A DNA stretch of 64,000 bases from Natrinema halophilum. GTDB taxonomy: Archaea > Halobacteriota > Halobacteria > Halobacteriales > Natrialbaceae. The notes beneath the pieces were generated by a model. The model worked only from the letters and a program-made list of their open reading frames with translations. It did not search any database and had not been told where the DNA came from. The stretch covers positions 1,984,001 through 2,048,000 of the forward strand of contig NZ_CP058601.1 of the NCBI RefSeq assembly GCF_013402815.2. The letters run 5' to 3'. Positions within the stretch are counted from its first letter, which is position 1. Each line of letters begins with the position of its first letter. Below are positions 15,101 through 29,299 of the stretch, piece after piece. Both the position numbers and the translations under genes were made by a program.

Positions 15101-15173
15101 CCAATTTTAGGTTTAGATCCAACACCGATAAAGGAGTTGGGCCCGACGCGGTCTTGCGGTTTTTCTCTTTGGG

Positions 15174-18100
15174 GTGGTCTGCGTGACGATTCCGCCGGCA
15201 CAGCAGTGCACGCTGCCAAGCTGTGAAGAGGAAGCCGTCGACCCAACTAACCCCGGCGCCCTCTGCCAGAATCATCTTGGCGGACTCGAGTCGGAGGAAC
15301 CTGTCACGAAACCCGACGAGTCGGACGGATCGGACCCCCTTTGCGACACCTCTCCAGTTGTAGATACATCACATGTACAACGAATAGAGACCATCCCGTC
15401 GCCACTCGACGAACTCGGTGAGGCGTTCATCCCGTTTGACCCCGGCGAGAAGGGTGCACGCCGATCGCGGACCTCAGAGCACCTGCTTGCGCCTGACGAC
15501 CCAGTTCTTGAGGCATACCTCGAGGCAGGCCACAACTACGGTGTCGTCACGCGCGGCGATCTGGCCGTCGTCGACGCGGACGAACCCGAGCGCCTTCGGG
15601 GGTTGCTCGACGCACTTCCGGCGACCGCGTGGCAGGTGTCCGGTTCGCGAACGAGCGAGCACTACTTCCTTCGCGTGCCCGGTCTCGATGCTGACCTCCC
15701 ACTCGTTGATCCCGATTCCGGCGCCGAACTCGGTCACATCAAGGGTGCCGAACAGTCCTATGTCGTTGGTCCAGGGTCCCGCCACCCGTCGGGCAACCGA
15801 TACGGCCCTCTCGAGGGTGACGCGATCGCGACCGTCGACGAAGACGAACTCCGCGAGTTGATCGACCCCTTCCGTCCGGGCGACGTCGACCGCGACCGGG
15901 TACCAACGGACCTGGAGAGAGCTCGGAACGCCAACGCTGGAGATTCTACCGGCCTCTCTGTTCATGACGTACTCTCTCGACGGCGCTACCCCGAAAGTGA
16001 GCGTCGCGACCACCCGTTCCACGGTTCCGACACGGGGGCGAACTTCATGGTGGACGATGGTGGTGACACCTGGCGCTGCTGGCGACACGGGTGTACCGGC
16101 AACGCGCTCCACCTCGTTGGCATTGAGCAGGGCGTTATCAGCTGTGGCGACTGGAAGCACACCGGGCTCAACACCGACACTTGGCGCGACGTCTTCACCG
16201 CCGCCCGTGACGCGGGATATGATCTACCGGAGCACGAGGGCGCCGGGGACGACGGTGTCGAACAGGTCGCCGCACTTCCCGATACTGAACTCCTGAAGGG
16301 TGCCGCATCGGGTTGGGACTGGCGTCATGCCGGCGCTCGGGAGGCCACTGAGGAGGACCTCCTCGAGCAGGCTCGGGGTCGAACGACGGAGAAGATCGCC
16401 GGCGCTATCGGAAGCGGTGACCGCGTCCTTGTCGAAGCACTCCCAACGCTCGGCAAGTCCTACGGCGCCGTGAAGGCCGCCGCCGAGACGGGAAACCCGG
16501 TGACGATACTCACCACTCGTGGGAACAAAGAGCAGTACGGACAGATCGAGGAGTGGTGTGAGAAGTTCGGTCTAACGCACAAACGGCTGCCGGCGTTCAC
16601 ACGCCACTGCGAGACCGCACGAGGAGACCACGGAGAGGATTGGAAGCAAACCGTTCTCGACTGGTACAATCGCGGTGCGACGCCGAAGCAGATCCACGCC
16701 CTCGCCGAGCAGGCTCACGGAAGCGAACTACCGTGCCAGCACGACGGTCAGTGTGAGCTCGCAAGCGCGTGGGACTTCGATCCCGACGAGCACCCGGACA
16801 CCGTCGGTGATGACGTCGAGAGCCGTCCGTGGGACGTCCTCATCGGGCACTACACACACGCCTACAAGTCGAAGGTGGTGCATGGGCGGACGGTACTGTT
16901 CGACGAGTTCGCTGAAGAGGCCTTTGAGCAGCGGCTCGACCACGGCATCGAGGGCGCGGTCTCGTACTTCCTCCAGCAGCACGAGCCGCTCCCCTTCGAC
17001 GACTACGCCGATCTCCTCGAGGGGCGCCACGACGATCAGCGCCGAGCGGACGCTCTCGCCTTCCTGGATGAGTACGGTATCGACTCCGATCCCACTGCTG
17101 TCCTCGGTGACCAAGCCGGTCACGCCGGGGCTCCGGCGGCGGTGTTCACCATCCTCGTCAGTGCGAAGGAGAACCTCGGTAACGGGTGGGAACGAGCAGA
17201 ACTCCCCGATGACCGTGTCGGGCTGTTCGATCGCGAAACCGGTGCCGTGTCAATTCTCTCGCCACCCGAGCTCACCTACACCAGTGCAGTCGTCGGTCTC
17301 GACGGCACCCCCACGCGGGAGCTGTGGGAACTCGTCCTCGGGGAACGCCTGAACCACACGCAGGTACTCACTGACGCCGAGCGACGGGAGTACCTTGCCG
17401 ATGGCCTCAACCTGAACCTCGTGCGGACGACCGAGGCGATCAAGCCCTACAACAACCCGGATCACGTCGCGGTCGACCGCGACCTCGCGCTCCTGGACGC
17501 GATCGCCGAGCAGCACGATACCAAGCCCGGCGTCATCACCTCAAGGAGGGCTCTCGATGTCTATTCAGATGCCGGTGCAATCGAGTACGACCCGGAGAGC
17601 GGCGACGTCGACGATGGTCCAGCCGACCGCGTCGCGTGGTTCGGTAACGTCATCGGGAGCAACCGGTTCAAGGAAACCCGCGTCGGCGCCGTCATCGGAT
17701 CGAATCATTACGGTGACCGGTACATCCAGAAGTGGGGTGCCTACGCCGGCGAAGCTGTCGAAAGAGGTGATGGAAGAGGCGCTGATCTATCGTATGGTCG
17801 ACTCGGTGACAAAGTCCTCGCTCACATGCGGGAGCACGATACACTCCAGGCGGCGATGCGCTTCGGTCGCGACGGCAACGGCGCCGTCGTCTACGTTCAC
17901 ACCGATACGCTGCCAGAGTGGGTGCCGATCGCCGGCGAGGGGCGCGTCCTCTCCACCTGGAGCGACGGCATGCGGCAGGTGATCGACGTCGCGAACGAGC
18001 TGGGGGAGTGGACGACCGCCGAGATCGCCACCCACCCGGACGTCGAGATCGGCGAGCGGCAGGTGCGTGACCACCTGACCACGCTTGCAGAAAAGCACGG

Positions 18101-18380
18101 CGTCCTCGAGCGGCGAACTGAAGGCTGCGGGTTCGTCTGGCGTGACAGCGGACTCCATCGGATCGGTGAGCACGGTGACGTCGAACTCGAGCCGGTCGAA
18201 CTCGAGACGTTGACTGGCGAGGAAAGTGCGGAACTGGCACGTAGTAGTATCTATACGTGGGAGTTCCGGACTTCGCGACCGTCTCGGTCAGTGACTGCCC
18301 GAGCCACTGGCACAGCAGTCGATCGGTCGGCTAAAGCATCAACAAACGGAGGAGACCCGCCGCCAGATGATGGTGAATGA
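15174..18380 (+). CDS. Bifunctional primase-polymerase/helicase (replication protein)
   Basis: This is the 1068-aa replication protein of the element. Residues 10-35 hold a Cys/His cluster (CTLPSCEEE, CQNH). Residues 80-235 form a prim-pol domain: GEAFIPFDPGEKG, HNYGVVTRGDLAVVDADEP (acidic catalytic pair) and GPGSRHPSGNRYGPL. Residues 280-330 form a CHC2-like zinc segment (WRCWRHGCTGNALHL). The helicase part has the P-loop EALPTLGKSYGAVK (421-434) and a Walker B-like VLFDEFAEEA near 570. The C-terminus adds a winged helix (ATHPDVEIGERQVRDHL). The start is GTG 15174, with GTG 15183 possible. It resembles replication proteins of haloarchaeal plasmids and proviruses, so the element probably replicates when excised. 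Confidence 0.85.
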   Translation: MVCVTIPPAQQCTLPSCEEEAVDPTNPGALCQNHLGGLESEEPVTKPDESDGSDPLCDTSPVVDTSHVQRIETIPSPLDELGEAFIPFDPGEKGARRSRTSEHLLAPDDPVLEAYLEAGHNYGVVTRGDLAVVDADEPERLRGLLDALPATAWQVSGSRTSEHYFLRVPGLDADLPLVDPDSGAELGHIKGAEQSYVVGPGSRHPSGNRYGPLEGDAIATVDEDELRELIDPFRPGDVDRDRVPTDLERARNANAGDSTGLSVHDVLSRRRYPESERRDHPFHGSDTGANFMVDDGGDTWRCWRHGCTGNALHLVGIEQGVISCGDWKHTGLNTDTWRDVFTAARDAGYDLPEHEGAGDDGVEQVAALPDTELLKGAASGWDWRHAGAREATEEDLLEQARGRTTEKIAGAIGSGDRVLVEALPTLGKSYGAVKAAAETGNPVTILTTRGNKEQYGQIEEWCEKFGLTHKRLPAFTRHCETARGDHGEDWKQTVLDWYNRGATPKQIHALAEQAHGSELPCQHDGQCELASAWDFDPDEHPDTVGDDVESRPWDVLIGHYTHAYKSKVVHGRTVLFDEFAEEAFEQRLDHGIEGAVSYFLQQHEPLPFDDYADLLEGRHDDQRRADALAFLDEYGIDSDPTAVLGDQAGHAGAPAAVFTILVSAKENLGNGWERAELPDDRVGLFDRETGAVSILSPPELTYTSAVVGLDGTPTRELWELVLGERLNHTQVLTDAERREYLADGLNLNLVRTTEAIKPYNNPDHVAVDRDLALLDAIAEQHDTKPGVITSRRALDVYSDAGAIEYDPESGDVDDGPADRVAWFGNVIGSNRFKETRVGAVIGSNHYGDRYIQKWGAYAGEAVERGDGRGADLSYGRLGDKVLAHMREHDTLQAAMRFGRDGNGAVVYVHTDTLPEWVPIAGEGRVLSTWSDGMRQVIDVANELGEWTTAEIATHPDVEIGERQVRDHLTTLAEKHGVLERRTEGCGFVWRDSGLHRIGEHGDVELEPVELETLTGEESAELARSSIYTWEFRTSRPSRSVTARATGTAVDRSAKASTNGGDPPPDDGE

Positions 18381-18543
18381 GTCGAATGACCGGGACAGAC
18401 CGCCGCCTCCGGAAGCAACCGGTAATCGACAGGAATGGCCAGCAAACCGTAACGAAGCAGCATACAACCAACACAAAAACGATGAAAGGAAACCGAAAAC
18501 CGACGCGAAACGCCCTAATAACGGGTCAAACCCCAGGGGTTAG
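18367..18543 (+). CDS. Small hydrophilic element protein
   Basis: A 58-aa frame that starts ATG ATG inside the last codons of the replication gene (14-nt overlap) and ends TAG at 18541. It is rich in Asn, Pro, Arg and Lys (NESNDRDRPPPPEATGNR) with no hydrophobic core, so it is probably disordered. The overlap in a compact operon is the main support for a gene here. Its function is unknown. Confidence 0.5.
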   Translation: MMVNESNDRDRPPPPEATGNRQEWPANRNEAAYNQHKNDERKPKTDAKRPNNGSNPRG

Positions 18544-18549
18544 CTTTCG

Positions 18550-18828
18550 ATGAGCTCCGACGCGAGCACGGGCGCGAGCGAGCCAGATGCGAGCTCCGCG
18601 GAGTACGATCAGATGCTCGAAACGATCGACGTCGCGATCGCCGAGGCACGTCGGAAAGTCGAGTCGGGGCGTGTGTACGACGCCGAAAACGAGAAGGTCC
18701 GCATCAAGTGGATTCGAGCGCTGGCTTACGCGGTGAACGTCCGGCGCCAGGTGACCACCGATCGCGACCTCGAGGAGCTGGCCGAAGAGGTCGAACGGAT
18801 GAAAGAACTCCGAGGTATAGACCGATGA
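18550..18828 (+). CDS. Small helical protein of haloarchaeal mobile elements
   Basis: A 92-aa protein with a Ser/Ala/Asp-rich N-terminus (residues 1-18) and two long charged helices (DQMLETIDVAIAEARRKVES, KWIRALAYAVNVRRQVTTDR). The VYDAENEKVRIKWI segment is characteristic of a small family seen next to replication genes in haloarchaeal plasmids and proviruses. The function is unknown. Its TGA overlaps the next ATG in an ATGA arrangement, so translation is coupled. Confidence 0.7.
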   Translation: MSSDASTGASEPDASSAEYDQMLETIDVAIAEARRKVESGRVYDAENEKVRIKWIRALAYAVNVRRQVTTDRDLEELAEEVERMKELRGIDR

Positions 18829-19187
18829 CGGCCGTCGCGAGTAGGAGTCTACTGGTTGACGGTCCTGTGATGACCTCCGGAGTCGCGCCCGGAGCGAGCA
18901 TAGCGAGCATGCTACCTATGGAAACAGAACCAACGACGCTGTCCGAGTTCGCTGACAGTACCGCCGATGGGGATGACGTCGACGTGACGCCTGAGCAGAA
19001 CGCGACGGACATCCAGAATCTCATCGGACTTGTCGGCACGCTGACTGACAAAGTCGGTCAGCTCGCGGAGGATCTCGAACAGCAGAAAACGGACCAACCA
19101 CAGCCGGCTGAAGATTCCGAACAGGCTACCGCTGGTGACATGATGAACAGAGAAGCAAATACGACGACGGAGCGGATGTTCCAATGA
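18825..19187 (+). CDS. Element protein with heptad-like helix, unknown function
   Basis: A 120-aa protein starting at ATG 18825, overlapping the preceding stop by 4 nt; an internal ATG (MLPMETEPTT) could also be used. The central segment NLIGLVGTLTDKVGQLAEDL (about residues 69-88) has heptad spacing of Leu/Val and is likely a coiled coil. The N- and C-termini are polar and low-complexity. It ends in an ATGA overlap with the next gene. Confidence 0.6.
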   Translation: MTAVASRSLLVDGPVMTSGVAPGASIASMLPMETEPTTLSEFADSTADGDDVDVTPEQNATDIQNLIGLVGTLTDKVGQLAEDLEQQKTDQPQPAEDSEQATAGDMMNREANTTTERMFQ

Positions 19188-19537
19188 ACATGAGTGACAA
19201 AAATAACGCAATTGAAGAGGCCCCTGAGTGGGCGCTCGGACTTATCGAAATGATTGAACAGAACGCAAAACGAATTGACGAAATCGAAGCAAGCAGTGGG
19301 AAAAGTGCAGTCTCTGATTCGGGCTACACCCTTCGCCCGGACGAATCCCGACACCGTGGGAAGCAGCTACTGGATAATCGCCAGGCTCGAAAGAAGGTGC
19401 CAAGCAGCGGCGAGTCTGAGGGTGCCTTCACTCTCGATCCGCGAAAGACGAAATTGGCGGCAGAGGATACCGACGAACCGGAAGACGAGAATGAGAAGGA
19501 GGGTGGCTTCACCCTCGACCCACGGAGGGCCGAGTGA
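19184..19537 (+). CDS. Repeat-containing small acidic protein
   Basis: A 117-aa protein. A helical N-terminus (EWALGLIEMIEQNAKRIDEI) is followed by three copies of a short motif: GYTLRPDES near residue 46, GAFTLDPRKTK near 83 and GGFTLDPRRAE at the end, separated by polar linkers. Repeated short linear motifs on a disordered tail suggest multivalent binding to a partner. No family is recognised. It overlaps its neighbours by 4 nt upstream and 1 nt downstream. Confidence 0.6.
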   Translation: MNMSDKNNAIEEAPEWALGLIEMIEQNAKRIDEIEASSGKSAVSDSGYTLRPDESRHRGKQLLDNRQARKKVPSSGESEGAFTLDPRKTKLAAEDTDEPEDENEKEGGFTLDPRRAE

Positions 19538-19917
19538 TGGATAACCTGTTCAAACTCACGGGACGGAAGCGGTACCACTGGCCTGCGATAGACGTCACTG
19601 TCTCTCGAGACGAGGACCCGTTTCTGTTCATCGCCGACGAGGAGCGAAAGGAGCTTCTCCTCGAGCGCGACGCGTTCGAACATGTGCCTGGTGACACGCT
19701 TGAGGCCGCCCTCGAAGACGACGTCGACGACGTCACAGCGGCAATCGAGAGCGGAGAGTGGGACGAGATTCTCGACTTCCTACTCTACGCAGAGCAAGAA
19801 GCTGAGCCCCGTCCGCCAGTCTGTGAGGCGATCGTCCACCGCAGCGAGACGCTGAAACTCCAGCGGGAGAATGACGACACCTCAATCGACCCGACTGGAC
19901 TGACGGTCGGGAGGTGA
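19537..19917 (+). CDS. Element protein of unknown function
   Basis: A 126-aa acidic protein. ATG 19537 shares its A with the preceding TGA; a GTG one codon earlier is also possible. NLFKLTGRKRYHWPAIDVTV opens a small beta-rich part, and WDEILDFLLYAEQEAEPRPP follows an acidic helix. No catalytic motif is seen. The position within the coupled rightward operon is its main context. Confidence 0.6.
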   Translation: MDNLFKLTGRKRYHWPAIDVTVSRDEDPFLFIADEERKELLLERDAFEHVPGDTLEAALEDDVDDVTAAIESGEWDEILDFLLYAEQEAEPRPPVCEAIVHRSETLKLQRENDDTSIDPTGLTVGR

Positions 19918-19923
19918 CGGACC

Positions 19924-20079
19924 GTGGCAAACGCACACCAGGTGCCGTCTTCGCGAAAGGTCTGTCGTCAGTGCGGGGCGTACATGCGGTACGTCGGTAG
20001 CTCACCCCCAGCGGGGGGCGGCCACCACCGGACGGTGTTCCACTGCCCAGAGTGTAATGAACGGAGGCAGCGAGGATGA
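19924..20079 (+). CDS. Small CxxC zinc-finger protein
   Basis: A 51-aa frame starting at GTG 19924 and ending TGA 20077-20079, overlapping the next ATG by 4 nt. It has two zinc-binding pairs, CRQCG near residue 14 and CPECN near residue 43, with a glycine-rich turn between. Such micro zinc-finger proteins are abundant in haloarchaea and their viruses, and most lack an assigned role. Confidence 0.65.
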   Translation: MANAHQVPSSRKVCRQCGAYMRYVGSSPPAGGGHHRTVFHCPECNERRQRG

Positions 20080-20399
20080 CGCGACGTTCAAAGCGGGAGA
20101 TCGAGCGAGCGCTCGAGGAACTATCGAGCGGCAGGGCCGCCGCTGCCGAGTCGGCCGACTTCGAGATCTCTGAGGCAGTGCGACATGACGCTCTCGCGTT
20201 CATCCGCTACTGCCACCATGTCGCGGCAGAAACCCAGGTCCATATTCAGCCAGCTGACCTTCCTGGGAACCTGATCAAAACGGCGCTGGGAACGGTTGAG
20301 CAGGGAGGGTTGACCGTCGATCGTATCGAAGCCGCAGCTGAACACGTCGGGTTCGAGCCAAGGAATCGCTCCACCTACGGGCGGGGGGAACAGGCATGA
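20076..20399 (+). CDS. Element protein of unknown function
   Basis: A 107-aa protein with a basic helical N-terminus (TRRSKREIERALEELSSGRA), then HDALAFIRYCHHVAAETQVH and a C-terminal LGTVEQGGLTVDRIEAAAEH. It is predicted to be wholly helical. It overlaps both neighbours by ATGA, so it is co-translated with them. No family is recognised. Confidence 0.6.
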   Translation: MTRRSKREIERALEELSSGRAAAAESADFEISEAVRHDALAFIRYCHHVAAETQVHIQPADLPGNLIKTALGTVEQGGLTVDRIEAAAEHVGFEPRNRSTYGRGEQA

Positions 20400-20782
20400 C
20401 GCTCGTCGATGGAATTGCGAATAGCGAGGAGTTCCGTGAGACGCTCGGAGCTATCGGGACCGTATTCAAGGGGGACGGTGGCGGCCTCTTTGCGGTCGTT
20501 CCAAGTGGGTTGTTCGACGACGGACAGCTCCCAGATGTCAATTTCGACGATGTAACTGTGGAGGGTTCCAATGGCTCAAAGGTCGCAGTCCCTCACTACC
20601 GCCCGAGATGCCTCCGTGGCGGTGTTCACATTCTCGCTCGAGAACACATCGCGGCAGCATGGTACGACATGAGTCCGGAGGCGCTCGAGTGGGAGTACAC
20701 CCACCGAATCCAGACTAATCAGCCGATTCCGCCGTTGCTCGCCGATTCAGTTGACGATGGCAAAGAGGGTGAGAAAGCGTGA
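20396..20782 (+). CDS. Element protein of unknown function
   Basis: A 128-aa protein with alternating strands and helices: SEEFRETLGAIGTVFKGDGG, GLFAVVPSGLFDDGQLPDVN and HYRPRCLRGGVHILAREHIA. The only Cys is in the middle. It lies directly before the large glycine-rich protein and overlaps it by 4 nt, so the two are probably needed in fixed ratio. A helper or chaperone role for the downstream protein is speculation. Confidence 0.6.
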   Translation: MTLVDGIANSEEFRETLGAIGTVFKGDGGGLFAVVPSGLFDDGQLPDVNFDDVTVEGSNGSKVAVPHYRPRCLRGGVHILAREHIAAAWYDMSPEALEWEYTHRIQTNQPIPPLLADSVDDGKEGEKA

Positions 20783-22125
20783 GTGAGTTCTCTACTACAG
20801 CCACCGTTGAACTCGAACTGGACGATCGCTCCGTTCGGAACGTTGAGCAGCAGATTAAGTCGGCGGTAGGCACGACAGAGGTAGGTTTCACTGACGGTGG
20901 GTCGATGTCCGCCCAGGTCGCAACCGACGGGGGAGGTGGCGGGCGTGGGCGCCGCCGGCGACGTCGCGAGTATCGTTGGGCCCGCGAGCGCACCGATTAC
21001 CTCGAGGAGACGGTCACGTATCTCGAGTCGATCGAGGATGGAATTGGTGGAGGCGAAGGTGGAGGGATTCTCGGCGATCTGCTCGGCGGTGGTATGGTCG
21101 GCGGTCTGCTCGGTGGGACCGCTGGAGGAGGTGGCCTTGGAACCGGGCTGGCAGCGCTTGGGATCGGTGCCGGTGCCGGGATCGGAGCTGTCGGCATCGG
21201 GAAAGGTCTTGGAGAAGCGCTCGGGGGAACAGGAGACTTCGCAGAGGGCGTCGGCGAAGGGCTTGGCGGGACTCTTGAAGGGACGGGGGACTTTGCACAG
21301 GGCGTCGGAGAAGGACTGGGTGACGTCCTCAGCGGGCTTGGCGATCTCGGCCCCGACTCAGTCGAAGTAAACCCCGAAGTCGACTTCTCCCCGACTCTAA
21401 AACCGGAGTTCAACCCTCGGTTCGATGTGTCTCCGGAAATATCTCCTGAAATAAATATCGGGGCAGAACACGAGGTTAGTGGAACGGTCCCGGTTGAAGA
21501 GCCAACAGAACCCTATCCAGTCGAAGATGTCGAGCCCCTCGAGGTGGAGGATATCGACCCGATCGAGATTACTGTGTCAGTAAATGGTCCGGCACCGGCC
21601 GGTGTTACTGAGGGTTCGTCGGTATCTACAACCGGCAATTCCTTCTCAGAAACTGCTGATGATGAGTTTGGGGATCCGTTCGGTCGTGCAAGTCAACTCG
21701 GGTCCGCTGTCCCTGCAGCTGGACACGGAGCAGGCTTCGCTATCGGTGCAATTGAGTCAACCACCAGTTACGATTCAGCCGCTGAAATGGAAGCCGATAG
21801 GCTGGATCCGAACCACTACAAAACAACACCGACTGATACTGGTTCTATCCCTCTCTCAGAAACTGGAATCGACCCGTCTACGTTTGACACGGATACTGCT
21901 TCTGGAACGTCCGCGTCGACTGTGTCCGTCACTACCGACCCCCAAATAACATTGGAGAATAGTTTCGAGACCGAAATTGTTGTTGACGAACTACGACAAT
22001 TCCGTCAGAAGACATTGACTGAAATTGAGAAGATGGTGAACGACGCATTCGATGAACTAGAAGACGAACTCGAGAATGTGAAGGACGACGTCGATAGCCT
22101 TGAGCGAGCCTTCAACGGCCGGTGA
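20779..22125 (+). CDS. Glycine-rich, tape-measure-like protein
   Basis: A 448-aa protein from GTG 20779. The N-terminus VELELDDRSVRNVEQQIKSA resembles the opening of tail tape-measure proteins, followed by a basic patch (GRGRRRRRREYR). Residues 85-190 form a long Gly/Leu/Ala hydrophobic stretch with repeated GTGDFAEGVGEGLGG units. Residues 195-300 are Pro/Glu/Val-rich with repeats (NPEVDFSPTLKPEFNPRFD). The C-terminal 45 residues form an acidic coiled coil (DELEDELENVKDDVDSLERA). Possible roles are a membrane-inserting virion or DNA-delivery component, or a surface protein. Codon use becomes AT-richer in its 3' half, suggesting mosaic origin. Confidence 0.65.
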   Translation: MSEFSTTATVELELDDRSVRNVEQQIKSAVGTTEVGFTDGGSMSAQVATDGGGGGRGRRRRRREYRWARERTDYLEETVTYLESIEDGIGGGEGGGILGDLLGGGMVGGLLGGTAGGGGLGTGLAALGIGAGAGIGAVGIGKGLGEALGGTGDFAEGVGEGLGGTLEGTGDFAQGVGEGLGDVLSGLGDLGPDSVEVNPEVDFSPTLKPEFNPRFDVSPEISPEINIGAEHEVSGTVPVEEPTEPYPVEDVEPLEVEDIDPIEITVSVNGPAPAGVTEGSSVSTTGNSFSETADDEFGDPFGRASQLGSAVPAAGHGAGFAIGAIESTTSYDSAAEMEADRLDPNHYKTTPTDTGSIPLSETGIDPSTFDTDTASGTSASTVSVTTDPQITLENSFETEIVVDELRQFRQKTLTEIEKMVNDAFDELEDELENVKDDVDSLERAFNGR

Positions 22126-22135
22126 TATTTATACC
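22125..22135 (+). promoter_or_regulatory. TATA-like promoter of the two-TM protein
   Basis: The sequence atatttatacc lies 22-32 nt before ATG 22157 and just after the preceding stop, so a leaderless transcript is likely. Confidence 0.5.
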
Positions 22136-22156
22136 AATGGTAATCAATCTGCTCTT

Positions 22157-22420
22157 ATGAAAAAGGGTGCTGGCGATAGGCGAAATGTGTCAGAAAACAC
22201 GGTCGGGTACTTTCTATTAATCACGGTAGTTGGGGTTATGCTATTTGGGGTGGCAAGTTTCGTAATGGAATCCTTGGGAGATCTCTGGATTCTGCTCTTT
22301 GGAGCAGGGGTTCTCGTAGTGATGTTTCATGGTGCAACAAAGATGAGGGCAACCAATAACAAACAGGACGGCCCAGACAATCCAATTGACGAGCCGAAGA
22401 GTCTCGAGGACAGTGAATAG
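22157..22420 (+). CDS. Small two-TM membrane protein of the element
   Basis: An 87-aa protein starting at ATG 22157, placed 22-32 nt after a TATA-like element; an upstream TTG in frame is less likely. Two adjacent hydrophobic helices are visible (VGYFLLITVVGVMLFGVASF and LWILLFGAGVLVVMF), flanked by a basic N-terminus (MKKGAGDRR) and a polar acidic tail. It could be a membrane component paired with the glycine-rich protein upstream. Codons are markedly AT-richer than in host genes. Confidence 0.65.
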   Translation: MKKGAGDRRNVSENTVGYFLLITVVGVMLFGVASFVMESLGDLWILLFGAGVLVVMFHGATKMRATNNKQDGPDNPIDEPKSLEDSE

Positions 22421-22465
22421 GTACCGACCGAACGCTTAACCACCTACCACCCATACACACGCCCA

Positions 22466-22765
22466 ATGAGCACAGACACCGGTTCGAACGACTCTCCGCA
22501 CGGGGTAACGCGGATCACGCTCACCAAAGAGGACGAATGGTGGGTGGCGAAAGACGAAGAGACCGGCGTCGCGAGCCAGGGCAAGACGCGGACCGAGGCG
22601 CTCGACATGCTCGACGAGGCGGTCGCGCTCTATAACGGCGAAATCGGCGAGCCGATAGAGACGTGGGAAGAGGAGAAAGAGGTGCTGGAGGAGATCGGAC
22701 TCGACCCCGAAGAAGTGAAGGCGAATCGAGAAGCCGCTGACGGGCTTCCAGAGTTCATGCAGTAA
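22466..22765 (+). CDS. hicB: HicB-like antitoxin
   Basis: A 99-aa protein with the HicB partial RNase H-like fold: VTRITLTKEDEWWVAKDEET, then GVASQGKTRTEALDMLDEAV, the conserved glycine turn and helix. The acidic C-terminal helix (EEEKEVLEEIGLDPEEVKAN) is where HicB proteins carry their oligomerisation or operator-binding part. The antitoxin-first order, with HicA nine bases downstream, is a common arrangement in archaea. It neutralises HicA and probably autoregulates the pair. Confidence 0.85.
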   Translation: MSTDTGSNDSPHGVTRITLTKEDEWWVAKDEETGVASQGKTRTEALDMLDEAVALYNGEIGEPIETWEEEKEVLEEIGLDPEEVKANREAADGLPEFMQ

Positions 22766-22774
22766 CCGCGACAG

Positions 22775-23023
22775 ATGCCGACAACCGATTTTTCCGGACT
22801 CGATGTCGTGAAAGCCCTCACCAAAAACCGGTTCCGTGTCGTCGATCGCGAAGGGAGTCACGTAAAACTCCGGTACGTACACCCGACCAACTCCGACGAT
22901 GTCCGAGTGGTCTCGGTGCCGATGCACGACCGGATCAAACAGGGCACGTTGCGGAATATCGCCGAACAATCCGGTGCGAATGACTTTCACGCCTGGTGTG
23001 AGTGGGTCGATCGAAATCGGTAA
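22775..23023 (+). CDS. hicA: HicA-like mRNA interferase toxin
   Basis: An 82-aa dsRBD-fold toxin that cleaves mRNA when HicB is lost. SGLDVVKALTKNRFRVVDRE leads to H29 in GSHVKLRY, the catalytic His position. VSVPMHDRIKQGTLRNIAEQ is the second conserved block. Gene spacing and reading frame are intact, so the module is probably functional. Its place at the junction of the element's two arms suggests a maintenance role. Confidence 0.88.
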   Translation: MPTTDFSGLDVVKALTKNRFRVVDREGSHVKLRYVHPTNSDDVRVVSVPMHDRIKQGTLRNIAEQSGANDFHAWCEWVDRNR

Positions 23024-23093
23024 CACGCCGACCGGAGTCGAAAACTTCCGTCGGCAGTGAAAAAGGGCGAAGGGGAGTCGGCCGATGGCTGTA

Positions 23094-23336
23094 CTATTCC
23101 TCGGTCTCGTCCTGTTCGTCGACGGCGATCGGCTCCAGGACGTTTTCAACGTACCAGTCGAACTCACTGAGAGTGATTGACAGGCGTTCAACGTCTCCTG
23201 TTCGAAGGGCCTTCCCCTCCCTGAGGCGGTCTGCGATTTCGTAGCAGTCCTCGCAGACCGCGTCGCTTAGCTCGAGCGTTTCTCGGGGGACAGATCGGCG
23301 TGCAGCCGCTTCCCAGTCCGGGCTTTCTTCAGTCAT
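23094..23336 (-). CDS. Small helical protein, last gene of the leftward operon
   Basis: An 80-aa protein beginning MTEESPDWEAAARRSVPRE, whose ATG overlaps the end of the TnpB-like gene by 8 nt. A CEDC pair near residue 28 might bind metal but has no partner pair. The rest is helical with an acidic tail (EQDETEE). It reads leftward, converging on hicA. Its coupling to the nuclease suggests a shared function, but none can be assigned. Confidence 0.6.
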   Translation of the reverse strand: MTEESPDWEAAARRSVPRETLELSDAVCEDCYEIADRLREGKALRTGDVERLSITLSEFDWYVENVLEPIAVDEQDETEE

Positions 23337-23991
23337 CTTTCCCCCTGGCATCAGGTCTGCGTTTCGCGATCGAGACAGCAGCACTTCGGTCGCGGTCGAC
23401 AACGTCGACGGGACACGACTCGGTCGTGCACTCGAGCCCGGCGCTATCCACATCCCCCAGTTGATCGCACACGTGGCACTGCTGTGTGGTGTACTTCGGG
23501 TTGATGTATTCCACATCGTAGTCTTCGGCGACCGCTGCATCCGCGAATGCATGCTGTAACACCGGAAGTAGCCACGACCCCAGGTCAGTTTCACCCCGCC
23601 GGCACTCTGACAGCGGTCGGAGGGGGTAGGTGATTTCCTCGAGGACGACGGTCCCGGCGTCGGTGGCCTCGAGGTAAGCGAGCAGCTGCTCCGTAGCATC
23701 GGCAACACGGACGGCGAGGCGATCTCGATACGCCACGAACGCGTGAACTTCGGCGGCTGTTGTATCGCCGGGAAGTGCCTGCAGCCGGCGGGTCGTCGCA
23801 CCAAGCTCATCGTAGAGGGCACGTACTATCCCCCCGTCGGCGATGTAGGCGTTCCTAACAGTCGGGTCGGCGGTGATCGGCGATGCAGCGAACAGCTGAC
23901 GAACGCCGAGGTCAACCCCGACGCGTCGATCGGCGCCGGTCGCGGTTCCCACCGGTCGGACAGAGACCGGCGTAGAGGAGTCGGTACTCAT
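23329..23991 (-). CDS. RuvC-only TnpB-like nuclease, not in an IS
   Basis: A 220-aa protein carrying the whole TnpB/Cas12-type RuvC core but little else. RuvC-I is VGVDLGVRQLFA (D27), RuvC-II is TVVLEEITYPL (E118) and RuvC-III is VVDRDRSAAVSIAKR (D199/D201). A target-nucleic-acid-binding zinc finger is present: C172, C175, C188, C193. RuvC-I begins at residue 24, so the roughly 170-residue WED/REC part that binds omega-RNA and TAM in TnpB is absent. There is no tnpA, no IS ends and no adjacent omega-RNA. The start at 23991 overlaps the upstream stop (ATGA), and the stop overlaps the next gene. It looks like a domesticated, operon-integrated nuclease with intact catalytic residues. Confidence 0.75.
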   Translation of the reverse strand: MSTDSSTPVSVRPVGTATGADRRVGVDLGVRQLFAASPITADPTVRNAYIADGGIVRALYDELGATTRRLQALPGDTTAAEVHAFVAYRDRLAVRVADATEQLLAYLEATDAGTVVLEEITYPLRPLSECRRGETDLGSWLLPVLQHAFADAAVAEDYDVEYINPKYTTQQCHVCDQLGDVDSAGLECTTESCPVDVVDRDRSAAVSIAKRRPDARGKDD

Positions 23992-24293
23992 CGGCTCACC
24001 CACTCCTCTCGGTCGGCTGGACCGTAGGCCACGAGCTCGTTGAGGAAGCTCTCGAGTTCGCTCAGTGTCCGGAAGGTCTCAAGGTTCAGCGTCTCGACAA
24101 AGGCACCCTCGGGGCTGTAGATCGACCACACTCGGGGGCCGCTCTCGTGATGGTGGCTTTCGAGATGGAAGCCGTGGTGGTCGAGAATTACTCCAGGTGG
24201 GAATGCTCCCTCGAGCATCTCCCGGTAGAAATCGAGCCCGCCACGGTACAGGTCGGGACGTGGGGCGATCACGATGTCCGGGTCTTCGGTCAT
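23988..24293 (-). CDS. Element protein of unknown function, His-rich loop
   Basis: A 101-aa protein beginning MTEDPDIVIAPRPDLYRG. The middle carries LDHHGFHLESHHHESG, a dense His/Glu cluster that could bind metal, then PRVWSIYSPEGAFVETLNLE and a C-terminal helix (LSELESFLNELVAYG). No family is recognised. It is coupled to both neighbours by ATGA overlaps and directly precedes the TnpB-like gene. Confidence 0.62.
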   Translation of the reverse strand: MTEDPDIVIAPRPDLYRGGLDFYREMLEGAFPPGVILDHHGFHLESHHHESGPRVWSIYSPEGAFVETLNLETFRTLSELESFLNELVAYGPADREEWVSR

Positions 24294-24799
24294 CGCGAAC
24301 GCCCACCTCCAGTAGTATCCGCGGTGTCCACAGCTGGGCGACCCGTGGCCCCGTCGTCGCCGGCGGTGGTGTCAGCGTTTCGCTCGGTGGCGTGTTGCTC
24401 GTGGCGGTACCGGAGCGTCATCTCCTCGATCGTCTTCTTACAGCTGAGGAATTCGCGGACGTCGTCGTCGAACAGTGCGTTCAGGTCGACGTCTCCCATC
24501 GCAAGCGTGACGTCGCACAGCCTGTCAGCGGCTCGCTCGAGGGTCTCGGAATCACTCATCAGATTCCCCCCGTTCCCACCGGCGGAAGTTCGTGGTGGCC
24601 TATCCTCGTCCGTCTCGTGAGTCTCGTCGGCCGCAACCCGGCCCTCAGTTTCCGGGGCCGTGACGGCCTTGGCACGTTCGATCTCCTCGAACTCGGCCTG
24701 AATCCGCTCCTCAGGCCACTCCTCAACGCGGTCAGTACGCCGGCCGCGATCGCGAGGTCGGACTCGAGGACCACCGAGTGGGCTTCGCCACGCCGTCAT
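24290..24799 (-). CDS. Element protein of unknown function, possibly two genes in one frame
   Basis: One open frame of 169 codons from ATG 24799, which overlaps the preceding stop (ATGA). The first 25 residues are Arg-rich (PRVRPRDRGRRTDR), then acidic helical sequence (EERIQAEFEEIERAKAVTAP). An internal ATG at 24559 (MSDSETLERAADRLCDVTLA) opens a more compact helical part with EFLSCKKTIEEMTLRYRHEQ, so an 89-aa product starting there is an alternative. The C-terminus is Gly/Thr/Asp low complexity. The function is unknown. Confidence 0.55.
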   Translation of the reverse strand: MTAWRSPLGGPRVRPRDRGRRTDRVEEWPEERIQAEFEEIERAKAVTAPETEGRVAADETHETDEDRPPRTSAGGNGGNLMSDSETLERAADRLCDVTLAMGDVDLNALFDDDVREFLSCKKTIEEMTLRYRHEQHATERNADTTAGDDGATGRPAVDTADTTGGGRSR

Positions 24800-25056
24800 T
24801 GGTCCCCTCCCTCTTCGCTTTCGTCACCATCGGCCTCTCCGGGCTGCAACTCTCGAGCTCGGTCGACTACTTCCGCCTCGAGGTATTTCATCGCCCGCTT
24901 GTGCTTCGAGACCGCGTCGACGAGGGTGTGGCCCTTCGCCTTGATGGTGTGGACGTCCTGGTCTCGCGTGCCGGTTCCACGCGTCAGTTTCGACGTGATC
25001 GAGACACCGGTATCGGTCCGCTCAACGAGCTGGTCCGCGTCGACGTCGTCGGTCAT
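24796..25056 (-). CDS. Small protein conserved in haloarchaeal elements
   Basis: An 86-aa protein starting MTDDVDADQLVERTDTGVSI, with its ATG overlapping the stop of the SWIM gene. A short beta part (VSITSKLTRGTGTRDQDVHT) is followed by a long helix (DAVSKHKRAMKYLEAEVVDR) and an acidic tail. The VERTDTGVSI...KLTRGTGTRDQD signature recurs in haloarchaeal mobile elements, without a known role. Confidence 0.65.
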   Translation of the reverse strand: MTDDVDADQLVERTDTGVSITSKLTRGTGTRDQDVHTIKAKGHTLVDAVSKHKRAMKYLEAEVVDRARELQPGEADGDESEEGGDQ

Positions 25057-25631
25057 CGGTCGCTCACCTCGGCAAACCGGCATCCGTCACGGTGGGTGAC
25101 GAGGTCGCGGTCGATGTCCTCGTGAACCTCGCGGCTGCAGTCTCGGCACTGGTAGTATCGCGCACCGGTCGGTTCGCCGTACTTGTCGTATTCGACGTGA
25201 GGGCCGTCCCACGGATCGACGTCGTCGCTCTCGAGGATCTCGGCATCGTCGCCGGCGATCGCCCCGGTCACGCCACCGTCGGACGTCGCGACGCGCGGGC
25301 CGTTGGCGTGTTCGCCCAGGCGGGGGTCGACGTCCAACTCGGCGAGGGTCCTCGCGTCGACCGTCTCGTGTCCCATCGCGATCCGCGCACGGCGGACGTG
25401 TTTGCACCCACCGTCGGGGTGGCGGTACTCCGAGTCGGGGCACTCACACACGCCCTCGCGGACGTCCACGAGGTACTCCTTGCCGCTCTGTGAGGTGACA
25501 AGGGTCAGGTCATCGGCGCCGCGAGCCCGGCCGATCTCGGGCGTGACAGTCAGATACTCCTCGAGAGCGCGGACGTCGCGCTCGTCGAGCGTGTCGATAC
25601 ATTCTTCCGCTGCTTTGTCGTAGTTCGTCAT
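25053..25631 (-). CDS. SWIM zinc-finger protein
   Basis: A 192-aa protein, first gene of the leftward operon. VREGVCECPDSEYRH with GGCKHVRRARIA (about residues 57-85) is a SWIM motif (CxCx(n)CxH), which binds nucleic acid or protein. A second Cys/His cluster near the C-terminus (YYQCRDCSREVHEDI, then THRDGC) looks like another zinc site. Between them is a low-complexity acidic linker. SWIM proteins of this size are frequent in haloarchaeal plasmids and viruses. ATG 25631 faces the winged-helix gene at 25836 across a shared control region. Confidence 0.78.
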   Translation of the reverse strand: MTNYDKAAEECIDTLDERDVRALEEYLTVTPEIGRARGADDLTLVTSQSGKEYLVDVREGVCECPDSEYRHPDGGCKHVRRARIAMGHETVDARTLAELDVDPRLGEHANGPRVATSDGGVTGAIAGDDAEILESDDVDPWDGPHVEYDKYGEPTGARYYQCRDCSREVHEDIDRDLVTHRDGCRFAEVSDR

Positions 25632-25737
25632 GGCTTTCTGGTCTAACGAAAGCCGACGTCGGGTGCTGATGACACCCGGCGCAATCCTTCAGAAGATCAC
25701 GCCCGAGGACGTCTGCTTTCTATCCTATGCAACTACC

Positions 25738-25827
25738 TGCAAAGGCTTAAAGGTTGTCCTTTGCAAGGTTCTGCAAAGGACTTATTACAGATAGCCACCA
25801 AATCACTAATGCAGATGGATGCAAAGG
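25738..25827. promoter_or_regulatory. TGCAAAGG operator array in a divergent promoter region
   Basis: The 8-mer TGCAAAGG occurs three times in direct orientation (25738-25745, 25772-25779, 25820-25827) and once inverted as CCTTTGCA (25758-25765), all within 90 bases between the divergent SWIM operon and the winged-helix gene. Spacing between sites is 34, 14 and 48 bases. An AT-rich cttattac near 25781 could be the rightward TATA element. Repression by the adjacent regulator is inference. Confidence 0.7.
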
Positions 25828-25835
25828 TCCAAATA

Positions 25836-26069
25836 ATGGCCGATCGCGACGATGACTCGGGGCGGTACACGGAAACCTTCCCGCTCGAAGAATTCACAGA
25901 AGCGCTCAAGAACCTTGGAGGTTCAGCCGGGACTCAAGAGGTTGCCGACGAAGTTGGATGTAAGTATCGTACAGCGAACGCAAAGCTCCACGAGCTCAAG
26001 GAACGTGGAGAGGTGACCGCTCGTAAGGTCGGAAACGCCTATCTCTGGATGATTGATGGTGGGGGATGA
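25836..26069 (+). CDS. Winged-helix regulator of the element
   Basis: A 77-aa DNA-binding protein. ATG 25836 gives MADRDDDSGRYTETFPLEEF, the opening typical of this haloarchaeal family; in-frame ATGs at 25809 and 25815 exist. The helix-turn-helix is GTQEVADEVGCKYRTANAKL, followed by the wing ERGEVTARKVGNAYLWM. It is divergent from the six-gene leftward operon, with the TGCAAAGG array between them, so it is the likely autoregulator of both. Confidence 0.82.
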   Translation: MADRDDDSGRYTETFPLEEFTEALKNLGGSAGTQEVADEVGCKYRTANAKLHELKERGEVTARKVGNAYLWMIDGGG

Positions 26070-26278
26070 TCGCCGTGGCTCTTTCAACTAACCGCAAGCA
26101 TAATGTCCTCCGTTGCCCGGAGTGCGACGAGGATCTCGAGGGCAACCTCGGTCGGGTGCCGGCGGCCGTCGACGGCGACGCCGTCCGAGTGGCGATCGAC
26201 TGCCCGGGGTGTGCGACGTCGCTCGAGTTCTCCGGCGTCCAGGTGGGGATATCAATCGAAGCTGTCGGTGGAGGGTGA
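26066..26278 (+). CDS. Small zinc-finger protein
   Basis: A 70-aa protein whose ATG overlaps the stop of the regulator (ATGA). Two CPxC pairs are present, CPECDEDL near residue 18 and CPGCATSLEF near residue 46, typical of a single zinc ribbon. The rest is beta-rich. It is probably co-transcribed with the regulator. Its role is unknown. Confidence 0.65.
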   Translation: MIAVALSTNRKHNVLRCPECDEDLEGNLGRVPAAVDGDAVRVAIDCPGCATSLEFSGVQVGISIEAVGGG

Positions 26279-26282
26279 CATC

Positions 26283-26432
26283 ATGCCTGAATGCGCGGGC
26301 TGTGGTGCCCACGTCACGTCTGACTACCATCGCGTCTTCTCGGCCCGCGACGGTGAACTGAAGGCGTGCATCAACTGCTCGAGCAATCGCGTGGCCCGCG
26401 ACGCCGGTCGAAGCGAAGCGGGTTCAATGTGA
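26283..26432 (+). CDS. Micro zinc-finger protein
   Basis: A 49-aa protein starting MPECAGCGAHVTSDYHRVFS and continuing with KACINCSSNRVARDAG. The paired CxxC motifs (PECAGC, CINC) make one zinc site. Close relatives of this size and layout are widespread in haloarchaeal genomes and viruses. It follows the previous gene by four bases, so it belongs to the same short operon. Confidence 0.7.
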   Translation: MPECAGCGAHVTSDYHRVFSARDGELKACINCSSNRVARDAGRSEAGSM

Positions 26433-26508
26433 AAATGGGCCGTCAAGTCTCATGCAAACCGAAGGACGGGAGCGAGGTGGATGAAACTTCACGCGCGCGA
26501 GGCTATTC

Positions 26509-27129
26509 TCAGCTTTCGGACTCGAGTTTCAACTGCATGATCTTTGCATACTCCTCGTTATTCAGGTCACCCCGTCGAAAAAGTAGATCGAGCATACGAC
26601 GGGGGAGGGTCGCGAGTTCCTCGTCGGTCATATCGCCTGTGGAGTCGCCGAGAGACACCACCAGCTCGTTTGTCACTTCTTCCGGGACGCGGTCATCGCC
26701 CCGAAATTCAATCGCGGTACTCACTCCCTTTTCTACCTGGTTATTGAACGATTTGGTCACTCGAGCCAAGTGTTCTTCAGACGAATACTCCTTGTCTGGC
26801 GAGGACAGGAATTCTCTGACGTCGGTCTCATTGGTGAACATCGGCCGTTTCTGTGCCCACAGATACAACATCGCTGCAAGTGGCCAGGCCGGGGGCGCCT
26901 CTTCACCATCCGAATCCTCGTCCCTTTTAAATATCTCTTCCAGTTCGTTCTCATCCAAGTATTCAACGAGAACTTTGAGGTCGAGTAAACCGTTCCGTGC
27001 ACGCTCCCGAATCGCGTTACGTCGCTTGGTTCTGGCCGGTGGACTATATATGCTGTTGCGTCTAACCTCGCCCATTTCGAGGTATTCCCGATCACTGTCA
27101 GTCAGTATTCCGCGTGGTCGATTAACCAT
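26509..27129 (-). CDS. Uncharacterised haloarchaeal family protein (element paralogue)
   Basis: A 206-aa protein from ATG 27129. The N-terminus NRPRGILTDSDREYLEMG and the following basic helix TKRRNAIRERARNGLLDLKV align with the host protein at 62685 (DRPRGILTPSDRDFLLG; KQKRNRIRRRVRNAILDFSI). The two are members of one family, with one copy carried by the element. The C-terminus is helical (MTDEELATLPRRMLDLLFRR). No catalytic residues stand out. The basic N-terminal helices suggest nucleic-acid binding. The gene lies alone on the minus strand in AT-richer DNA. Confidence 0.75.
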   Translation of the reverse strand: MVNRPRGILTDSDREYLEMGEVRRNSIYSPPARTKRRNAIRERARNGLLDLKVLVEYLDENELEEIFKRDEDSDGEEAPPAWPLAAMLYLWAQKRPMFTNETDVREFLSSPDKEYSSEEHLARVTKSFNNQVEKGVSTAIEFRGDDRVPEEVTNELVVSLGDSTGDMTDEELATLPRRMLDLLFRRGDLNNEEYAKIMQLKLESES

Positions 27130-27197
27130 ATTGGGCAACAATAGACACCAATGGCACCAAAGCAGTTAAACCTATGGGCCTCCATTGTCAAAACAGA

Positions 27198-27344
27198 ATG
27201 TCAGCTGAAGCCGATCGATCCCACACGACACTGTGGGTAAGCAAAACGACAGCCTCTCGGCTGGAGGATCTAAAGCCCTTTGAGAGTCTCACGTGGGACG
27301 AGTGGTTGGCAGAGTTGGCCGATCAATACGAAAACACGGCGTAG
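27198..27344 (+). CDS. Small ribbon-helix-helix-like protein
   Basis: A 48-aa frame from ATG 27198 to TAG 27342-27344. TTLWVSKTTASRLEDLKPFE has the strand-then-helix pattern of ribbon-helix-helix (CopG/Arc-type) DNA-binding proteins, followed by LTWDEWLAELADQYENT as the second helix. It may be an antitoxin-like or copy-control repressor. No toxin gene follows. The gene is short, so its coding status is tentative. Confidence 0.55.
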   Translation: MSAEADRSHTTLWVSKTTASRLEDLKPFESLTWDEWLAELADQYENTA

Positions 27345-27528
27345 ACACTCATGAACAGTGGATCCAACAGGGAGATGACCCGACCGCGCCCACGGCCGGC
27401 GAGCCCTGCAAAGACTACTGACGAGTACCGCAACGACAACCCCGATAGTCCCGACGACGGTGTTGTCTATCTGTCCTTTCGGGCGGATGGGTCTTATTTC
27501 TGTCGTCGGGGCACCGCGAGCCCACGAC

Positions 27529-27771
27529 ATGATCACTGAGAACAATCAATCAGACAGAACAGCGGCTGAACTAACCGACCCGGATACGGATGCGAGCGCC
27601 GGATATGCTGAAGAATACCTCCACCAAGGCGTTGAGTCGGCCAGTGACTCAATGGAACCGGATGAGGAGTTCGACCGATTACTTGAGTTTGCCGACCGAC
27701 TCGCCGCCGCGACTCGCGAGGATCGACCGATGCAGTACCGCGAGAAACACGCACGGAGGGTGACGAGCTGA
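27529..27771 (+). CDS. Small acidic element protein
   Basis: An 80-aa protein from ATG 27529, preceded at leaderless distance by a TATA-like cttattt (27493-27499). It is acidic and helical (EEFDRLLEFADRLAAATRED) with a basic tail (QYREKHARRVTS). No family is recognised. It is followed two bases later by the next small gene. Confidence 0.55.
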   Translation: MITENNQSDRTAAELTDPDTDASAGYAEEYLHQGVESASDSMEPDEEFDRLLEFADRLAAATREDRPMQYREKHARRVTS

Positions 27772-27772
27772 T

Positions 27773-27973
27773 ATGAGTTTAGCCACAGATACGAATCCTG
27801 ACGAGTACGTTCGGAAGAATCGAGAGACGTTGGTGAAGATCATCAAGCACGGCAACGACGATTTCGTCCGATCGCTGGCACTCGCTGCGATAGTTGAATT
27901 TGGCGGAGAGCCCGACCTGGAGAAGGTCCGCCGCGAGATCGACCGGGTTATCGAGATGGAGGGTGCGGCATGA
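27773..27973 (+). CDS. Small helical element protein
   Basis: A 66-aa protein, wholly helical (YVRKNRETLVKIIKHGNDDF, VRSLALAAIVEFGGEPDLEK). It starts one base after the stop of the preceding gene and converges on the integrase, whose stop is eight bases away. Such a gene next to the integrase could be an excision or accessory factor, but no winged-helix excisionase motif is visible. Confidence 0.58.
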   Translation: MSLATDTNPDEYVRKNRETLVKIIKHGNDDFVRSLALAAIVEFGGEPDLEKVRREIDRVIEMEGAA

Positions 27974-27981
27974 TCACCGCC

Positions 27982-29232
27982 TCAGCTGTCAGCGTCGACC
28001 GCGTCGACGAACTGCCGTGCAGTTTCAATGACGTCCGGATCACCACCGAGCGCTTCGACGAGCGGCTCGAGGTCCTCCAGGCTGGCGAGGAGTTCGGGAT
28101 GTTCCTTCGCGAGTCCGAGGAGTTGTCGCCGTTGCTCGTCCTGCTCCCGTTCGATCTCGTCGACGGCACCATGCTCGAGGGCTTGGTGGCACCACATGCA
28201 GAACGGTTCGTGTCGCGGGGTTTCCTTTTCACACCGGTCACACACAACAGCAGCCGTGGGTTCGGGTTCGTCGACTTCGACGTCGAGTCCGTGAGCACGG
28301 GCGAGCTCGCGATCACTCGCTTCAGCGAAGACCGAGATGTATCGAGAAGCCGCTTTGCTCCCGCGGGTCCATCCGTGGTGATCCTCGAGGACGGCCTGGT
28401 TCACGCCCTGACTCGCAAGGTGGCTCGCCGAGGACTTGCGGAAGTTCGTGAAGGTGACGGGCTTAGTGATGCCTGCACGTTCGGCTGCTTTTTTAGGGAT
28501 CTTCGCCGCCATCTGGTACGACATCTCTTCGCCGTTCTGAAGTTTGCACCACAGCAGCGCGTTGGGGTCGTCACTCCGAGGGTGGTCGGTCAGCCAGCGG
28601 TTGAGGTACGGAACCGACGTGATGAGCGTGATCGAGCGCTGTCCCTTCTTTCCGTCGACGGTGATCTGGAGACCGTGTTTGTGGTCGGTGACGTCGCCGA
28701 CAGTGAGCCCGAGAAGCTCGCCCGAGCGCGGGCCGCCGTCCCATGCGACTGCAATCAGGGCGGCGTCGCGGGCGTTCATCGTCGCGTCAATCATCGGGCG
28801 GACGTCTTCGTCCCACTCGAGCATGTCGCCCGGATCCGGGATCGGGTTGTAGTTCGACGACGTGCCGGTCGGGATCCACTCGAGACTCTCTGGGACGTCG
28901 TCGCCGGGAGTGAGGAAACGACCGAAGGCACGGAGGGCGTTGCGATTGTCCTTGTTGCTTTCGACGTTGTCGTATTCCTGGTGGATGACACGGACAACGT
29001 GCTCGGCGGCTTCGCGATCGTCGAGGACGTCCGCCAGGCCGTCACTTCGTTCGGCGAGGATTGTGCAGTGACGGAGCAGCTTCTCGTGGCGAGCGACACC
29101 GATCCGCGACGGGACGAGGGCCAGGGCCTTGCTGAAGTCGAGGAGCAGCTCACGATCGGCGTCGGAGACGTCACGCTCGCCGTCTTCGATCTGTTCGACG
29201 AGACGGTCGAGCGCGAGTTGCTTGTCGGGCAT
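27982..29232 (-). CDS. Tyrosine recombinase/integrase with zinc ribbon
   Basis: A 416-aa site-specific recombinase. The SAM-like core-binding part spans about residues 25-120. The catalytic domain shows R169 in GGPRSGELLGL, R265 in TNFRKSSASHLA, H286 in DHHGW and the nucleophile Y298 in SRYISVF. The usual His before Arg II is replaced (TNFR). After the catalytic domain comes a zinc ribbon, CDRCEKETPRHEPFCMWC, common in haloarchaeal integrases. It lies 53 bases inside the right copy of the tRNA-Ser repeat and reads inwards. It is expected to integrate and excise the element. Confidence 0.92.
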   Translation of the reverse strand: MPDKQLALDRLVEQIEDGERDVSDADRELLLDFSKALALVPSRIGVARHEKLLRHCTILAERSDGLADVLDDREAAEHVVRVIHQEYDNVESNKDNRNALRAFGRFLTPGDDVPESLEWIPTGTSSNYNPIPDPGDMLEWDEDVRPMIDATMNARDAALIAVAWDGGPRSGELLGLTVGDVTDHKHGLQITVDGKKGQRSITLITSVPYLNRWLTDHPRSDDPNALLWCKLQNGEEMSYQMAAKIPKKAAERAGITKPVTFTNFRKSSASHLASQGVNQAVLEDHHGWTRGSKAASRYISVFAEASDRELARAHGLDVEVDEPEPTAAVVCDRCEKETPRHEPFCMWCHQALEHGAVDEIEREQDEQRRQLLGLAKEHPELLASLEDLEPLVEALGGDPDVIETARQFVDAVDADS

Positions 29233-29284
29233 GTGGTGACGGTACCCTTTTTTATATTAATTGGAGTTAAACCTTCCGTTCATT

Positions 29285-29299
29285 TCCCTGTCCTGGCGT
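29285..29299 (+). repeat. attR: duplicate of the tRNA-Ser 3' end
   Basis: An exact 15-bp copy of tccctgtcctggcgt from the 3' end of tRNA-Ser (15086-15100), with no tRNA body attached. It marks the right boundary of the integrated element. Confidence 0.82.

Follow-up and report, generated by a model that had tools for sequence, protein, structure and literature searches.

A TnpB-derived RuvC nuclease and a structured leader RNA in an accessory operon of a Natrinema halophilum integrative element

What is a tightly packed operon that joins a zinc-finger protein to a TnpB-like nuclease doing in a mobile element of the haloarchaeon Natrinema halophilum, and is it a system of its own? The operon lies in a 64,000-nucleotide stretch of contig NZ_CP058601.1 (positions 1,984,001 to 2,048,000; hereafter the window, to which coordinates refer unless another locus is named). 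A preliminary description had presented it as a six-gene operon on a mobile element, with overlaps of 4–8 nt, a SWIM zinc-finger leader gene, a TnpB-like nuclease and a dedicated divergent regulator region, and had declared that no such system was known. All of these parts were confirmed. The verdict of novelty does not stand, because the nuclease, its 101-amino-acid partner (p101) and the control region (winged-helix gene, leader RNA and short first open reading frame, ORF) are common to the haloarchaeal RAMP system (HRAMP), a predicted CRISPR derivative (PMC8730458, PMC12669027). The most novel part is one that the preliminary description missed, namely a structured leader RNA in front of the first gene.

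The operon consists of six in-frame ORFs on the minus strand, running from 25631 to 23094. The first four overlaps are 4 nt each, all ATGA, and the fifth is 8 nt. ATGA overlaps are frequent in haloarchaeal operons, and the coupling is therefore unremarkable by itself; all six products are acidic, as halophile proteins generally are. The first gene (25053–25631) encodes a SWIM-type zinc-finger protein of 192 amino acids (phrog_17897, 3e-36), in which CxCx(n)CKH, an instance of the SWIM motif CxCx(n)CxH, and two C-terminal cysteines are invariant across nine homologues; the Pfam SWIM profile gave only a sub-threshold match, in a homologue. It is followed by a DUF7389 protein of 86 amino acids (24796–25056; PF24115, 3e-22), which is 80% identical in the sister element L104, and by a 169-amino-acid ORF (24290–24799), whose C-terminal half is conserved in L104 and in locus L196 and which is probably a fusion of two small genes that stand apart in L104. 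The fourth gene (23988–24293) encodes p101, the fifth the nuclease, and the sixth an acidic protein of 80 amino acids (23094–23336), for which no relative was found in Pfam, PHROGs, NCBIfam, PADLOC or the loci searched. The p101 model (AlphaFold pLDDT 71) had no match in the PDB (best Foldseek E-value 0.17), and a known fold was thus rejected. The dense His/Glu loop noted earlier in one of the proteins is present in p101 (HHGFHLESHHHESG), but it is not kept in p101 relatives, so that it is probably not a metal site and was rejected as such.

The nuclease (23329–23991, 220 amino acids; PF07282, 5e-6) most likely starts at the ATG at 23991 rather than at the GTG at 24003. In Foldseek, its AlphaFold model (pLDDT 83) aligned along almost its entire length with Cas12f (8dzj, E 1e-8), Fanzor2 and TnpB (8iaz). 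The catalytic residues D27, E118 and D201, together with the zinc-finger cysteines Cys172, Cys175, Cys188 and Cys193, are invariant in 18 proteins of this type, here called mini-TnpBs, and the same positions are matched in full-length TnpB. Only 26 residues precede the first catalytic Asp in the window protein, as against 180 in a 410-amino-acid TnpB of the host, so that the RNA- and target-binding half has been lost and the cutting half retained; the guide-RNA-binding WED and REC domains were not found. By its sequence, the protein is a stand-alone RuvC and TNB half of TnpB with an intact active site and without the N-terminal guide-binding half. A profile search of 392 genomes yielded 17 copies in 14 genomes at 267–367 bits and one divergent relative at 173 bits, within a SWIM-led operon (L196), whereas full-length ordinary TnpB scores at most 165 bits. 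Judged by sequence, mini-TnpBs are a small haloarchaeal clade set apart from full-length TnpB. The same profile returned only distant TnpB-like matches from IMG/VR, where SWIM and Cas5 queries had no match.

The genes around mini-TnpB fall into two arrangements. In mobile elements without RAMP proteins, a divergent winged-helix gene is followed by SWIM, small genes, usually a zinc-finger gene ("geneX") and mini-TnpB, as in seven loci (the window, L098, L100, L102, L103, L196 and plasmid pCBA1220-04, L200). In HRAMP loci, the regulator is followed by a short first ORF, geneX, p101, mini-TnpB, Cas7, a middle gene and Cas5; the p101 and mini-TnpB homologues (those of p101 being 41–54% identical) directly precede cas7 in L093, L094, L096, L097, L101 and L133, some of which lack a recognisable geneX, and decayed copies are found in L095, L099, L128 and L131. 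The RAMP proteins of these loci match PF03787 weakly and the Csm3 and Cmr3 profiles better, which fits published descriptions of HRAMP (PMC8730458, PMC12669027; primary source Makarova et al. 2019, FEMS Microbiol Lett fnz079, as cited in PMC8730458). The short first ORF of some HRAMP loci resembles the C-terminal zinc domain of the SWIM protein. Plasmid pHG4 (L199) carries geneX, p101 and mini-TnpB without RAMPs. In the window, a SWIM-led layout goes together with the p101–mini pair, and searches of its element with Cas7, Cas5 and middle-gene profiles found nothing. The gene-neighbourhood check called for by the preliminary description therefore does not leave the homologues scattered singly, since SWIM and the nuclease stand in one operon in the seven loci above and p101 precedes the nuclease in about a dozen. 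Co-occurrence of all six families fared less well: the complete set was seen only in the window, and most of the six genes are exchangeable.

Three side observations concern these loci. The geneX proteins (L094 8206–8673, L100 8849–9436 and others) start with a Tat-like motif, RRTFLGAAAAL, which is odd for an intracellular nuclease partner. Several mini-TnpBs occur in one species (L128, L131 and L132, Natrialba chahannaoensis; also L194), most with a truncated or decayed Cas7 or p101, suggesting a picture of HRAMP decay. In the host genome, a second HRAMP-like Cas7 with a middle gene stands beside a tyrosine integrase (L150, C1:3857000–3873000), suggesting that HRAMPs travel on mobile elements too.

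Is the window nuclease then an escaped HRAMP subunit? The tree rejects this. The HRAMP-linked mini-TnpBs and two RAMP-less relatives that keep p101 form one shallow clade (support 97/96) within a more diverse set of mobile copies, and a position of the window protein inside this clade was rejected by the approximately unbiased (AU) test (p-AU 0.003). The deeper branching order is unsure because several mobile copies are long branches.

The window pair might still serve HRAMP in trans. The host chromosome (G000, 4.84 Mb) carries an HRAMP at C1:311710–314276 that is complete (Cas7, middle gene and Cas5) but for p101 and mini-TnpB, neither of which is nearby; another Cas7 locus lies at 3864676. 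These two loci are about 1.7 and 1.9 Mb from the window, outside which the genome has no p101 or mini-type nuclease, and the leader RNA is common to host HRAMP and window operon. That the window supplies the missing nuclease is nevertheless improbable in our estimation: a protein outside the HRAMP-linked clade is not expected to have a co-evolved fit, and five genomes (G046, G157, G230, G248 and G271) have mini-TnpBs yet no detectable HRAMP Cas7. The opposite relation is that p101 and mini-TnpB from the element inhibit HRAMP or serve as decoys for it, or that an HRAMP regulator is titrated by the shared leader. This would account for an element that carries homologues of a defence nuclease subunit minus the rest of the complex, under a control architecture shared with HRAMP. 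We consider it very improbable, as decoys commonly lose their active site while this one is intact and invariant in RAMP-less copies, and the HRAMP copies branch within the mobile ones.

The control region begins with a divergent winged-helix gene on the plus strand (25836–26069; phrog_18890, 3e-9), whose ORF reaches back to 25761 and whose true start is probably near 25836; its homologues are divergent from SWIM-led, pHG4 and HRAMP operons alike. A 26-bp palindrome with perfect 10-bp arms and a 6-nt centre (25756–25781, minus strand) is a probable operator, and palindromes of similar geometry and different sequence occupy the same place in L103, L194 and L199. A putative TATA-like box, CCTTTAAGC (25745–25753, minus strand), lies about 25 nt before the RNA.

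The leader RNA (25632–25720, minus strand) is identified by fold energy, covariance-model match and covariation. It is a three-way junction of ~75 nt at the start of the operon and ends close to the first start codon, with helices P1 (25720–25708/25660–25648), P2 (25703–25678) and P3 (25677–25661). The window sequence folds at −41.3 kcal/mol (z −4.45), and the structure recurs upstream of HRAMP and further SWIM operons. As a covariance-model match, the window leader scored 58–60 bits. A first model, built from 10 leaders, found 24 leaders in the loci at hand. In these, double-sided changes occur in 22 of the 26 pairs, covariation is 0.546 (0.196 ± 0.017 when shuffled, 0.08–0.11 when slid), and RNAalifold independently recovers nearly the same fold. 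In a 50-leader alignment from searches with a second model, about 42 of whose members are outside the training set, 23 of the 26 pairs have double changes and covariation is 0.571, compared with 0.200 when shuffled; such pair counts are inflated by the fitting of alignments A10 and A11 to the structure. Gathering-threshold and E-value scans of Rfam 15 gave chance-level scores and no leader family, and a known RNA family was therefore rejected. That the leader RNA is real we regard as nearly certain.

The leader is widespread. The second model found 19 copies in the host genome (E < 0.002) and one or more in 64 of 117 genomes, roughly half of the sampled haloarchaeal species. A leader lies 0.2–1.2 kb upstream on the same strand of at least 20 of 30 HRAMP cas7 loci, where roughly 0.15% is expected per locus. 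The Antarctic tailed virus DL1 has a leader directly adjoining the first gene of its SWIM operon (E 0.015); virus BJ1 has a weaker-placed match (E 0.012), and none is present in HFTV1, a virus for which RNA-seq data are published. In IMG/VR, 52 stretches with the short core motif (493 kb) gave no model match at E 0.1, which doubles as a specificity control. Many host copies (L204–L223) precede short or decayed first ORFs sharing a similar N-terminus, suggesting many relics of such operons. Leaders also stand before operons with distant p101 homologues and no SWIM, mini-TnpB or RAMP (L188 6014–6103, minus strand; L189 5623–5714, plus strand; L191 3989–4076, minus strand).

How might such an RNA act? 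Almost every leader offers the 3′ strand of P1 a second pairing partner, the bases immediately preceding the AUG (in the window, GGCTTTC with GAAAGCC); the alternative helix that results, P4 (25654–25648/25638–25632), abuts the SWIM ATG at 25631. P1 and P4 are mutually exclusive, because both use the same bases. When the pre-AUG segments were permuted among 46 leaders, the longest P4 helix averaged 5.96 bp in the real leaders and 4.48 bp in the permuted ones (maximum 4.98; 0 of 2000 permutations reached the observed value); in 28 representatives below 70% identity, the means were 5.75 and 4.39 bp. This is the layout of a translational switch, and we infer the switching itself.

A processed guide or scaffold for HRAMP or mini-TnpB, with no switching in cis, would also explain why the RNA lies at the 5′ end of mini operons and of most HRAMP operons, which, as the 2019 HRAMP paper says in its title (cited in PMC8730458), lack a CRISPR array. 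We judge this quite improbable, since P4 at the AUG would be of no use in a guide, the RNA is also present before operons that have neither RAMP nor nuclease, and in 49 of 50 leaders it directly adjoins the start codon, a count that is partly built in as the covariance model includes the ATG.

The operon is carried by a 14.2-kb element (about 15100–29299) integrated in a tRNA-Ser gene (15018–15099). Its limits are defined by a 22-nt direct repeat, one copy at the 3′ end of the tRNA gene (15079–15100) and the other, 91% identical, at the far end (29278–29299), both listed on the plus strand, together with a replication protein and an integrase. The former (15174–18380, plus strand; 1068 amino acids) has a Prim-Pol (primase-polymerase) domain (PF09250, 5e-10) and a homologue in the L100 element, and had no match among phage records; the latter (27982–29232, minus strand; 416 amino acids) is a tyrosine integrase (PF00589, 9e-18), 87% identical in L104. 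The operon thus sits between the replication and integrase genes of its element, RuvC folds serve in resolvases too, and SWIM proteins are also encoded in operons of haloarchaeal tailed viruses, all of which would suit a housekeeping nuclease that acts on its own element, resolving or nicking the intermediates of replication or excision, helped by SWIM as a DNA-binding protein. This seems unlikely to us. L104 has SWIM, DUF7389 and the small genes and lacks p101 and mini-TnpB; the nuclease is therefore dispensable for the element and the pair is optional cargo. Furthermore, the same nuclease family occurs in HRAMP loci with no such element nearby.

Two neighbours of the operon deserve mention. 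A DUF7387 gene (HicB-like by position) and a HicA toxin gene adjoin it (22466–23023, plus strand) and are probably a toxin–antitoxin pair; a comparable pair lies next to the SWIM gene in L109. A 210-amino-acid protein with no assigned function (26509–27141, minus strand) recurs near SWIM-led and mini operons (L100, L092, L102 and L196).

We propose that this is an accessory operon of the integrative element, which would make a TnpB-derived RuvC nuclease and its partners, would be held silent by two layers of control and would most likely serve in conflict with competing elements or viruses, an account with roughly equal chances of proving right or wrong. The divergent winged-helix protein would bind the promoter palindrome and repress the operon. 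The leader would add a translational switch, leaving the pre-AUG stretch free when P1 forms and sequestering it when P4 forms, and through the ATGA overlaps all six genes would follow the state of the first. As the nuclease lacks the WED/REC part of TnpB, SWIM and p101 may deliver or restrain it, and it would cut the DNA of competitors. HRAMP would have recruited one mini lineage, with the RAMP proteins there probably supplying a targeting RNA. A defence role of the operon is plausible, and a role of the nuclease in conflict or defence is slightly less than evenly probable in our view. More tentatively, the leader may belong to a new class of archaeal gene-control RNA that senses a protein or a metabolite related to infection or nucleic acids, and may switch translation of HRAMP operons, of the mini operon and of SWIM-led operons in plasmids, in proviruses and in certain tailed viruses, as an alarm common to defence and mobile elements; we find this suggestion rather doubtful.

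Several points weigh against this account, beyond the inflated pair counts and the partly built-in ATG. The nuclease could serve replication or resolution of the element itself, and PADLOC gave no meaningful match for the SWIM, DUF7389, 169-amino-acid, p101 and 80-amino-acid proteins. The leader also heads operons without nuclease or RAMPs and is therefore not specific to the window system. P4 is short (4–9 bp) and imperfect in some leaders.

The data contribute coordinates and compensatory mutations for a conserved RNA that heads most HRAMP operons, and a RuvC-half nuclease family in which mobile copies without RAMPs branch outside those linked to HRAMP, pointing to a route for a transposon nuclease into a multi-subunit defence system. 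Compared with HRAMP, the window locus has in common the p101–mini pair, the divergent winged-helix gene, the leader RNA and the position of the short first ORF; it differs in lacking Cas7, Cas5 and the middle gene, in lying in an integrative element, and in having SWIM, DUF7389 and other small genes. With TnpB of IS200/IS605 and IS607 and with Cas12f, the nuclease shares RuvC and TNB, the catalytic D/E/D and four cysteines, and it differs in the missing N-terminal WED/REC half, the absence of tnpA from the operon and the conserved operon context. TldRs have lost the RuvC active site, whereas the window protein retains D27, E118 and D201 and has lost the RNA-binding half instead. In other respects it resembles TldRs, which are TnpB-like RNA-guided transcription factors (PMC13418256), in being TnpB-derived, used outside transposition and carried by mobile elements. 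Finally, the leader resembles riboswitches and protein-bound leaders in its multi-helix junction, a conserved fold with compensatory changes, and a basal P1 that competes with a helix beside the start codon; it differs from them in matching no Rfam 15 family and in being haloarchaeal. As of 2021, the fluoride riboswitch was the only natural archaeal riboswitch determined experimentally (PMC8241225), and a widespread archaeal leader RNA would add to that single case.

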